A stretch of 60,705 bases of DNA. It comes from Methanosarcina spelaei (GTDB lineage Archaea; Halobacteriota; Methanosarcinia; Methanosarcinales; Methanosarcinaceae). Shown piece after piece: positions 659 to 11,581 of this stretch. The first letter of the stretch is position 1. Every line of letters begins with the position of its first letter. The notes beneath the pieces are model-generated. The model had not been told where the DNA came from and made no database searches. It saw nothing but the letters and a program-made list of their open reading frames with translations. A program made the translations under genes and the position numbers. The stretch spans positions 1 to 60,705 of the forward strand of contig NZ_LMVP01000445.1 of the NCBI RefSeq assembly GCF_002287235.1, written 5' to 3'.

Positions 659-709
659 TAGACAACTACTTGTCTTGTTGATTATATTTTAAAGTAATGA
701 GGATGACTC

Positions 710-1675
710 ATGAGTACAGGAAATATACAAGACATTAAAGACCTCGAAAAGCTTCGCGGCTACCTTTACGGTACTGCCTGCGCAGATGCCCTCGGCCGCC
801 CGGTAGAACATCTGACACTTGAGCAAATAAAACAGAAATATGGGGAAAAAGGGATTCTTGAACTTCCTCCCGATTCTCCCTGGACCGATGATACTCAGCT
901 AATGCTTGTACTTGCCAGGGCTCTGCTTCGAGGGGCTGAACTCGAACTTCCCTAGCTTATGAGCAAGATAGCAGAGGAACTTGTACTCTGGCTGGACGAA
1001 CCTGACCTGGGTGCAGGAGCGACTACAAGAGGCGCAGCCCTTAGTCTAAAGGATGGAATTCCCTGGAACAAATCCGGAATAAGCTCCAAAACCTGCGGAA
1101 GCCTTATGCGAGTTGGGATTCTCGGTTTTGTTTACCAAAACGACCCTATAAAATTGGTTAAAGTTGCTCAGGTTTCAGGCCGAATTACTCACTCTCATCC
1201 TGTTGCAGAAGCTGCATCGATTGCTGGGGCATACTCAGTGAAACTGGCCCTTGACGGGGTGGAACCCGGAGAAATGTTTGAACCGCTTCTTGAGGTCACT
1301 AAGGGAATCTCTCAGGAGTTCACTCAGGTAATGGAAAGTTCCTATAAAGTGGCTTATAGTGACGTCGGAGATGAAGAAGGTTTGAAGAAACTCGGACAGG
1401 GCTGGTATGCGGATGAGACTTTTGCTTTGGCATACTTCTGCATATTACGTTATCCGAATGATTATAAGAAAGCAATACAGACCGCAGTGAATATAACCGG
1501 AGACTCTGATTCGGTTGCAAGCGTAGCAGGAGGCATTCTTGGGGCCAGGCTGGGAATTGATGCTATACCTGTTTCCTGGATTGAAGCACTTAAGGAGAAA
1601 GAAAAACTGGAGAGAATGGTTTGGCCTCTGCTTGAAAAGTATTTTCAGCTTTCAGGAAGCAAATTGAGGTCTTGA
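710..1675 (+). CDS. ADP-ribosylglycohydrolase (DraG/ADPRH family) with in-frame TAG (pyrrolysine candidate)
   Basis: Predicted to remove ADP-ribose from proteins or small molecules using a dinuclear metal centre. The frame is open for 81 codons, meets TAG at 953-955 (codon 82), and continues in the same frame to TGA at 1675, 321 residues in all, the normal size for the family. Family motifs lie on both sides of the TAG: the G-x-x-x-G...ADALG element (residues 17-29), the metal motif WTDDT (58-62), GSLMR, THSHP and the C-terminal GDSDS (264-268). The TAG falls in a loop/helix region between metal motif 1 and the next conserved block, where sequence is normally variable. GAGG at 699-702 supports the ATG at 710. 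In Methanosarcina UAG can be decoded as pyrrolysine, so this may be a full-length Pyl protein. The alternatives are a recent nonsense mutation, or translation restarting at the ATG at 959. The fused reading is clear; decoding is inference. Confidence 0.8.
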
Positions 1676-1766
1676 ATTTATACTGAGGTTTTGAATTTAT
1701 ATTGAGGTTTTGAATTTATATTGAGGTTTTGAATTTATATTGAGGTTTTGAATTTAATATTGAGGT
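1666..1766 (+). repeat. 19-bp tandem repeat spanning the draG-like stop codon and the next gene's ribosome binding site
   Basis: GAGGT recurs at 1666, 1685, 1704, 1723, 1742 and 1762, a 19-nt period (20 in the last unit). The first unit encodes the last codons and TGA stop of the ADP-ribosylglycohydrolase. The last unit supplies the GAGGT ribosome binding site of the gene starting at 1773. Each unit therefore contains both a potential stop and a Shine-Dalgarno-like element. Confidence 0.9.
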
Positions 1767-5487: not shown

Positions 5488-5754
5488 CTTTTCGCTAAGT
5501 TTTAGTTATTACATCTCCAGATTCCAGCCTTGAATTTGCTTTAAATTAGGTTATTTCTGCTTTTGTAAAGATAAGACTATCGGGACCTTCAAAATCAGTG
5601 TGTGAACTAAGATTATAAATGCTTATTTCAGATTATATATATCTAATAGGGTTATTCAAACAAAAATACACTCTAAAAATCCCAATTTTAAACTAATAAC
5701 TAAAATTAATCTTAAAAATTGAGAACTGAATGCAATAATAGCTTTATTTCAGTC

Positions 5755-5950
5755 GAATACCTCGCTAGTTTGCCGCAAGGATGAAAGCTTCCCCAGTAAC
5801 CGTTGATGACTATATAATTTATCAATTCCGTTTTTCGGTTGTTACCTTCTGATCAAACTAAACCGTTTAGGTTATTATTTCCTTTTACGGAGTTTCGAGC
5901 GGTAGCTCGAACATATCCCGTTGCTTGCAGCGGGGTGCGCTAGTGCAACT
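5755..5950 (+). ncRNA. GC-rich structured segment, candidate non-coding RNA
   Basis: Inside a 1-kb AT-rich gap (5450-6462) without a convincing gene, this patch is markedly richer in G+C. It can form TTCGAGC-GGTA-GCTCGAA (5894-5911), a perfect 7-bp stem closed by a GNRA-class tetraloop. A second stem, CCCGTTGC/GCAGCGGG, follows directly (5917-5934, one G-T pair). No family was recognised and the strand is a guess. It could also be a decayed gene or repeat. The remainder of the gap (5950-6440) shows only AT-rich sequence. Confidence 0.25.
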
Positions 5951-6462
5951 TTGATTTTTTGACAAACTATATTTATTTGTAATTATAGTTCAATTAAATT
6001 TTTCTTTTATATTATTCAATCTTATAAACGGACTAATTAGTTTCTAAATATGAAATTAAGTATGAACATTTTCCTTTAAATATAATAAAAAGCTGTATTT
6101 CATTATTTATTAGCCTATTTCACTTTAATTCTTGAAAACATTTCATAAAATTTATAACTAATGAAGAATATTAGATGAAAATGGGAATATTTGGCAGCAT
6201 ATCTATTTATTAGGAAATGTTAGTTCACATGATAGTTAGTGGATGAATTCTTAGTTGCAGAAACATAAGTCTTAACCAGTTAGTTTAAATTGAGCCTAAC
6301 TCCTCATTAGATATGTATTCTCGCCAAATATTTTGAGGATTCAGTATAATTTGAAAGCAGTACTGATCCTACGTACCCGATGGTAAGAAACACATAACTT
6401 CAATATTATATTAGAGTTATCCGTTTCTTGCTTCTTAAATCCAAATTAAGAGGTAATTAAAG

Positions 6463-6990
6463 ATGAAATTGAAAACCACTGGAGTAATAATTTCCTTGTT
6501 GATGATACTAATCACCTTAACGGGTTTAGTTGCAGCAAGCGCCGCCGAGAAAGTTAATGGGGACGATGGTCAAAGTACAATCAGCGTTACTCTCCAACAG
6601 GAAACCAGTAACTCTGCCCTAAAAAATACTGGAGAGGTAAGCATAGCGTCCCCTATAATAATGACTGGACAATCTAAACTAAGCGTTACTGGTAAAAGAA
6701 TTAATTTTAGCACATCAACATTTACGATTCCTTCTGTCTCATGTCCCCTAGTTCAGGCAACCTCAGAACTCTATTATAAGAAGACTCAAAGTAGTAAAGA
6801 AGCTTTTAAGATTTCGGCATTTAAGCAAGGAAAAAACGTTAAGAAAGTAGAAGCTAAGGGTTTTTTCATAGTCAAGCAATCCGGGTATTACCAGGTAATT
6901 GGCCACCACCGGATAGTTTCCCCGCCTGGATATAAACCCTCTGAAGCTGAAGACGTTACCTACAGTAAATGGAAATACGTTTCTGTTTAA
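6463..6990 (+). CDS. exported protein of unknown function
   Basis: 175 residues. An N-terminal signal peptide is clear: MKLK, a hydrophobic core to about residue 25, and an ASA-A cleavage-like site near 27. The mature part is Ser/Thr rich, then forms a likely beta-rich domain (about 65-175) with SELYYKKTQ, a G-F-F-I-V strand, and YYQVIGHHRIVSPPG. I do not recognise a family. AGAGGT lies about 8-9 nt before the ATG. It stands alone between the structured gap and an IS remnant. Confidence 0.7.
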   Translation: MKLKTTGVIISLLMILITLTGLVAASAAEKVNGDDGQSTISVTLQQETSNSALKNTGEVSIASPIIMTGQSKLSVTGKRINFSTSTFTIPSVSCPLVQATSELYYKKTQSSKEAFKISAFKQGKNVKKVEAKGFFIVKQSGYYQVIGHHRIVSPPGYKPSEAEDVTYSKWKYVSV

Positions 6991-7065
6991 TTCATAATCA
7001 TATTTAGTGTTTCGATTCCAAAATAGATTCTTTATTTAGCATGAAAGTACATGAGGATATCTTCC

Positions 7066-7530
7066 TCACGTGCTCTCTTCACCTTCTTTTTCCATTATCG
7101 CAAATATTTCACTAATTATTTTTATTCGTTCATCAACCGAGAATATCTCGGTCTCAACAATCTTCCTCTTTTGAATTTCTCCTTTTTTATATCCAGTTTC
7201 ATCTTCGTACATCTCATCGTTTACAATAAGATGCCATATTATCGTTGCAATTTTCCTTGCCAGGGCAATTATTGCCTTGGCATGTCCAATTGATTTCTTT
7301 TTCCTGTTAAAAAACTCTTTTAACTTACTATTATTCTTTCTTGCTGCTGCTTGAGAAATCTGCGTCAGAATCCATCTTGCTCCCTTTGATCCTCTCTTTG
7401 TAATTCTACCGTTGTGGTATTTATCTGCAGATTGATACACATTAGGAACCAGCGCAACTTTGATTAAATTTCTTAACTTTTTCATTAATCTTTTAATAGA
7501 CACACCTTTTTCCTGTATCGATCTTTTCAA
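7066..7530 (-). pseudogene. IS110-family transposase remnant, C-terminal part
   Basis: From about residue 28 the translation matches the C-terminal (transposase 20) domain of IS110-type transposases: LVPNVYQSADKYHNGRITK, GSKGARWIL, AARKNNSK and GHAKAIIALARKIATIIWHL. The DEDD catalytic N-terminal half is missing and the first ~27 codons do not look like the family, so a deletion junction probably lies near 7450. A full enzyme is about 330-400 residues. No intact IS ends were found. Inactive relic. Confidence 0.8.
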
Positions 7531-11251: not shown

Positions 11252-11581
11252 ATGGCTAAAAATGAAATCTTATCTGAAATAAAAAAAGCAGAGGAAAGCG
11301 CTAAATCAATGGTTGACGAAGCCATTGAAGCTAAAAACAAGCGTATCTCCGAAGCTCGGGCTGAAGCCAGGGAAATCCTGAAACAGGCCGAAATCGATGC
11401 ACATAAAGCTGCACAAGACTCTTTTAAAGAGGGTGAAAAAAAGATCCTGGAGGAAAGAGATAAGATCATAAACGATGGTGAAAAAAACGCATTAGCCATG
11501 TCCCAAAAAGCTCAAGCTAACATCGACAAATCCGTCAATTACCTTGTACAGGAGTTTGAGAGGGCGGTCCTTAATGAGTAG
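11252..11581 (+). CDS. ahaH: A1AO ATP synthase subunit H
   Basis: 109 residues, nearly all charged coiled coil (KKAEESAK...[20 protein letters not shown]). This is typical of subunit H, which pairs with subunit E to form the peripheral stalk. First gene of the ten-gene operon; GGAG precedes the ATG. The stop codon is TAG, the only TAG terminator found among the window's intact genes. It lies inside the overlap with ahaI (ATGAGTAG), and a TAA follows after one sense codon (ACC), so read-through would add only two residues. Confidence 0.9.

Follow-up and report, generated by a model that had tools for sequence, protein, structure and literature searches.

The stretch of DNA analysed here (the window) spans 60,705 nucleotides (nt) and is a complete contig of a draft Methanosarcina genome, that of M. 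spelaei, which totals 5.09 Mb in 559 contigs. Near its start, positions 710 to 1675 read as one ADP-ribosylglycohydrolase gene of the DraG/ARH family, interrupted by a single in-frame TAG (Table 1). The original prediction for this locus had the same frame running on both sides of the TAG at 953-955, and translation bears this out: the frame 710-1672 holds no other internal stop, and the TAG is followed by 239 codons up to the TGA at 1673-1675. PF03747 matched as one domain spanning the TAG (residues 17-287, profile positions 1-285 of 287, E 1.4e-68), with a Pfam score of 232.1 bits against a curated cut-off of 26.2. The family motifs said to flank the TAG are also in place, WTDDT before it and GSLMR and GDSDS after it. 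Both metal-ligand motifs of the PF03747 family (TDDT and D-x-D-S/T) are thus present in the product; TDDT and GDSDS we take to be metal ligands from what is established for DraG and ARH3. Because the TAG separates TDDT from GDSDS, neither half alone would make a complete enzyme. We found no frameshift and no lesion other than the TAG in 710-1675, and all motifs are intact. Right behind the stop codon of the gene lies a short tandem repeat (TTGAATTTATATTGAGGTT-like; window 1670-1760).

To place the TAG in its evolutionary setting, we compared the gene across 31 Methanosarcina genomes, counting as good quality those with completeness of 90% or more and contamination of 5% or less. A family match was present in 28 of the 31, including all 24 of good quality. 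None of the 26 full-length orthologues (window gene excluded) has an internal stop, and their codon 82 is variable: Glu in 16, Gly in 8, Lys in one, Arg in one and TAG in none. TAG conservation of the kind seen at the MtmB, MtbB and MttB sites is therefore lacking (0/26). Codon 82 is GAG in G004 (the sister genome, 92% identical) and in G014 (the next closest relative), within nearly identical surrounding sequence, and both genomes align collinearly with the DNA around the gene. Since these two carry GAG and no orthologue carries TAG, the TAG is a single G-to-T change private to the window lineage, hence a recent codon of M. spelaei lying one base from the ancestral GAG. Two relatives, G030 and G018, also hold second glycohydrolase-family copies (L030 and L031, respectively), which are decayed and carry several different stops.

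The surroundings of residue 82 in the protein fold were assessed on a predicted model (mean predicted local distance difference test, pLDDT, 71.7). The model adopts the ARH fold, with 1T5J as its best Foldseek match (template modelling score 0.73, E 8e-12), and phmmer matched the sequence to DraG/ARH structures at E 1.5e-28. In the model, residue 82 sits in the first turn of helix 80-94, behind a loop; as aligned by phmmer, MJ1187 (1T5J) and DraG (2WOC, 2WOE) have no counterparts of residues 81-84. Residue 82 is thus predicted to be a tolerant, probably exposed position. Pyrrolysine is unlikely to act in catalysis there, given that the site is variable, lies at a helix start after a loop and belongs to a four-residue stretch that MJ1187 and DraG lack. 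Pyrrolysine is not known in the DraG/ARH family, and a search of the accessible literature returned nothing connecting pyrrolysine with ADP-ribosylglycohydrolase. A search for a DraT partner gave no match and is uninformative, as the control genomes likewise gave none.

Whether the genome encodes pyrrolysine was a check raised with the original prediction: a complete pylTSBCD cassette lies on contig C368 (L049), with tRNA-Pyl at 5622-5693 (anticodon CTA), PylS at 5943-7199 and then PylB, PylC and PylD, the last three named by sequence and gene order. MttB, the trimethylamine methyltransferase of this genome, contains a single in-frame TAG and serves as a positive control for sense UAG. MtmB had no match in the whole assembly despite the full pyl cassette and the intact MttB, and MtbB was present only as two C-terminal fragments (C152:3-158 and C156:4007-4162); both probably reflect collapsed or broken repeats of the draft assembly. 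In the original prediction, the scarcity of TAG-terminated genes in the window was offered as a sign of sense-capable UAG. The count itself holds: among about 43 other open reading frames (ORFs) of at least 80 amino acids, only 11252-11581 (called ahaH) ends in TAG, with a backup TAA two codons further on. We reject the use made of it: in 1.3 Mb sampled from the genome, the 498 long ORFs include 23 with a TAG stop (4.6%), a rate at which about two TAG-ending ORFs would be expected in the window.

The same sample (~26% of the genome) was screened for stops with same-frame coding sequence on both sides, and candidates were checked by Pfam. The window gene ranked top among candidates without a nearby restart signal, and three further genes, encoding a HerA-like ATPase, a TPR protein and a GNAT acetyltransferase, were found to carry private TAGs (Table 1). 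Each of these TAGs is one base off the sister codon in an otherwise intact gene, so that the genome has at least four such genes, the window gene included. The three may be less neutral than codon 82, judging from the alignments, because Lys605, Lys218 and Trp45 are conserved in the closest orthologues. We scanned 23 TAA/TGA candidates, and no Pfam domain spanned the stop in those having a domain; the majority resembled adjacent genes, and several, being domainless, could not be judged. As TAG candidates were followed to lower scores than TAA/TGA candidates in a non-exhaustive screen, the excess of TAG over TAA/TGA in intact genes is suggestive only. A dienelactone hydrolase remnant (L122 11466-11750, + strand) also has an in-frame TAG, with a TGA just upstream of it, and is likely a pseudogene.

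Table 1. Features of the interrupted glycohydrolase gene (window coordinates) and further genes with private in-frame TAGs (coordinates of the loci named).
Feature	Position	Strand	Evidence
ADP-ribosylglycohydrolase (DraG/ARH family) gene, 321 codons, one in-frame TAG, TGA end	710-1675	+	PF03747 across stop; 26 stop-free full-length orthologues
Shine-Dalgarno-like GAGG, 7 nt upstream of ATG 710	699-702	+	Sequence, inferred
WTDDT motif, N-terminal metal ligands, residues 58-62, 5' of TAG	881-895	+	Translation; invariant in 17 orthologues
In-frame TAG, codon 82, presumed pyrrolysine; GAG in sister species	953-955	+	Translation, orthologue alignment
In-frame ATG, 3 bases past TAG; possible restart without Shine-Dalgarno; Met invariant in orthologues	959-961	+	Sequence, alignment
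GSLMR motif, 3' of TAG	1097-1111	+	Translation; invariant in 17 orthologues
GDSDS motif, C-terminal metal ligands, residues 264-268, 3' of TAG	1499-1513	+	Translation; invariant in 17 orthologues
HerA-like ATPase, private TAG at 6639, codon 605	L093 6138-8453, G000:C24	-	Lys (AAG/AAA) in 8/8 relatives; sister AAG, 97% identical
TPR protein, private TAG at 5912, codon 218	L094 5285-6565, G000:C35	-	Lys in 7 aligned relatives; sister AAG
GNAT acetyltransferase, private TAG at 6432, codon 45	L089 6141-6566, G000:C516	-	Trp (TGG) in two closest orthologues; sister TGG

We consider it likely that the TAG is a private replacement of GAG that is partly read as pyrrolysine, allowing full-length enzyme to be made with no catalytic role for the new residue. 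A functional ADP-ribosylglycohydrolase gene would have had its GAG changed to TAG within the lineage of this one species. In a cell with pyrrolysine and a charged CUA-anticodon tRNA, some ribosomes would place pyrrolysine at the tolerant residue 82 and complete the enzyme, while the remaining ribosomes would terminate, leaving an 81-residue fragment. The codon change would be neutral or nearly so, and catalysis would be independent of pyrrolysine. UAG in a reporter was read at an apparent 20-30% (PMC2933860); where UAG is read as pyrrolysine fairly efficiently without a special signal, a gene could survive the change of a Glu codon to UAG at a tolerant position. The genetic marks of a candidate pyrrolysine protein were found (an in-frame TAG in a homologous, otherwise open frame, with pylT, pylS, pylB, pylC and pylD in the genome), as were those of a putative neutral capture of the Thg1 kind (a private TAG, at a site varying among E, G, K and R, one base from the sister's GAG). 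We suggest more tentatively, as a possibility, that UAG is so routinely read as pyrrolysine in this organism that TAG drifts into ordinary genes (the glycohydrolase, the HerA-like ATPase, the TPR protein, the acetyltransferase and probably others). The result would be a broader set of accidental pyrrolysine proteins, an intermediate towards UAG reassignment.

Several observations weigh against this account. The pyrrolysine-containing full-length product is one that we infer from the gene, and the contrast between TAG and TAA/TGA comes from a sample screen, not an exhaustive count. There is no structure resembling a pyrrolysine-insertion element 3' of the TAG, though none is required: folding of 950-1055 was no better than that of shuffled sequences (z -0.25), and an Rfam scan gave no match at the gathering score. 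The substitution pattern speaks on the other side, in favour of the account: codons 83-321 underwent 5 nonsynonymous and 9 synonymous changes along the window branch, next to 9 and 11, respectively, along that of the sister. The corresponding rate ratio (omega) was 0.36 for the whole gene and 0.30 downstream of the TAG, with a background of 0.19 from which the branch did not differ significantly at low power (2dlnL, twice the log-likelihood difference, 1.47 and 0.35, respectively). Against it, the downstream omega was also not significantly below 1 in a likewise underpowered comparison (2dlnL 1.63), and selection may have had too little time since the mutation to become visible; the test gives no date for the TAG mutation.

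That selection following the mutation cannot be dated leaves room for the main rival, an early pseudogene in which the TAG mostly terminates, the enzyme is lost or nearly lost, and decay has just begun. A TAG private to this species is what such a gene would have, and the decayed second copies in G030 and G018 indicate that loss of extra copies is tolerated. The window gene, however, is the sole family copy in its genome, in a genus where every good-quality genome has a match; a second lesion is absent; and intact genes in the sampled part of the genome are interrupted by several TAGs, with no TAA or TGA case found. We therefore regard a pseudogene as unlikely, while giving it serious weight. 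A sequencing or assembly error over a true GAG is improbable. TAG differs from GAG by one base in what is a fragmented draft assembly, but the three further private TAGs, unaccompanied by TAA/TGA cases, are better explained by biology than by random error, and 137x coverage has been published for M. spelaei MC-15 (5.1 Mb; PMC5563889), which applies if this is the same genome.

Two further alternatives concern what the cell makes of the codon. A competing view named in the original prediction, a stop at the TAG and a restart at ATG 959 yielding two polypeptides that perhaps cooperate, draws on the closeness of that ATG and fares poorly: we looked for a Shine-Dalgarno-like sequence upstream of ATG 959 and found none, whereas ATG 710 has GAGG; ATG 959 is no new start, as orthologues without an interruption invariably have this Met; and the metal ligands would be divided between the two halves. 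We hold it to be very improbable. Least probable of all, to the point of being hardly credible, is that pyrrolysine at residue 82 has been selected and is functional in the enzyme, for example in regulation through methylamine supply; the pyl machinery in the genome is the sole point in its favour, and it faces a variable site that is missing in MJ1187 and DraG and is TAG in no other species. Of the proposal that this is a new pyrrolysine protein, then, what stands is the family assignment and the in-frame UAG, at which incorporation is plausible, and what finds no support is a conserved or functional residue. Two findings had been named in advance as telling against it, sense codons in all orthologues together with truncated peptides only, or a genome without pyl genes; the orthologue half of the first was observed in 26/26, and the second was not, as the cassette is complete.

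Partial incorporation of pyrrolysine at a neutral site, the reading that we prefer, would add a candidate enzyme family to the few pyrrolysine proteins that are not methyltransferases; transposases and Thg1 are the only ones listed in a 2021 review (PMC8211752). Together with the three similar genes, it would open a neutral route from stop to sense codon to direct testing in a Methanosarcina, and it warns that annotations of truncated genes or pseudogenes may be wrong in archaea encoding pyrrolysine. With MtmB, MtbB and MttB the gene has in common an in-frame UAG and the decoding machinery; in those enzymes pyrrolysine is conserved and catalytic, whereas the TAG at 953-955 is private and occupies a variable position. 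With MJ1187 (1T5J), DraG (2WOC) and ARH3 the product shares fold and motifs, although the first two have no residues aligned to 81-84. The gene at 710-1675 resembles instead the known case of Thg1, the tRNA-His guanylyltransferase of M. acetivorans, and not a new catalytic use of pyrrolysine. According to Heinemann et al. 2009, as cited in PMC2933860 and PMC3639795, Thg1 acquired a translatable, dispensable UAG where relatives carry sense codons, and neutral evolution is the explanation given there as well. The two belong to different enzyme families, and the Thg1 UAG was reportedly demonstrated to be translatable as pyrrolysine and the residue to be non-essential for activity, whereas for 710-1675 both are predictions.
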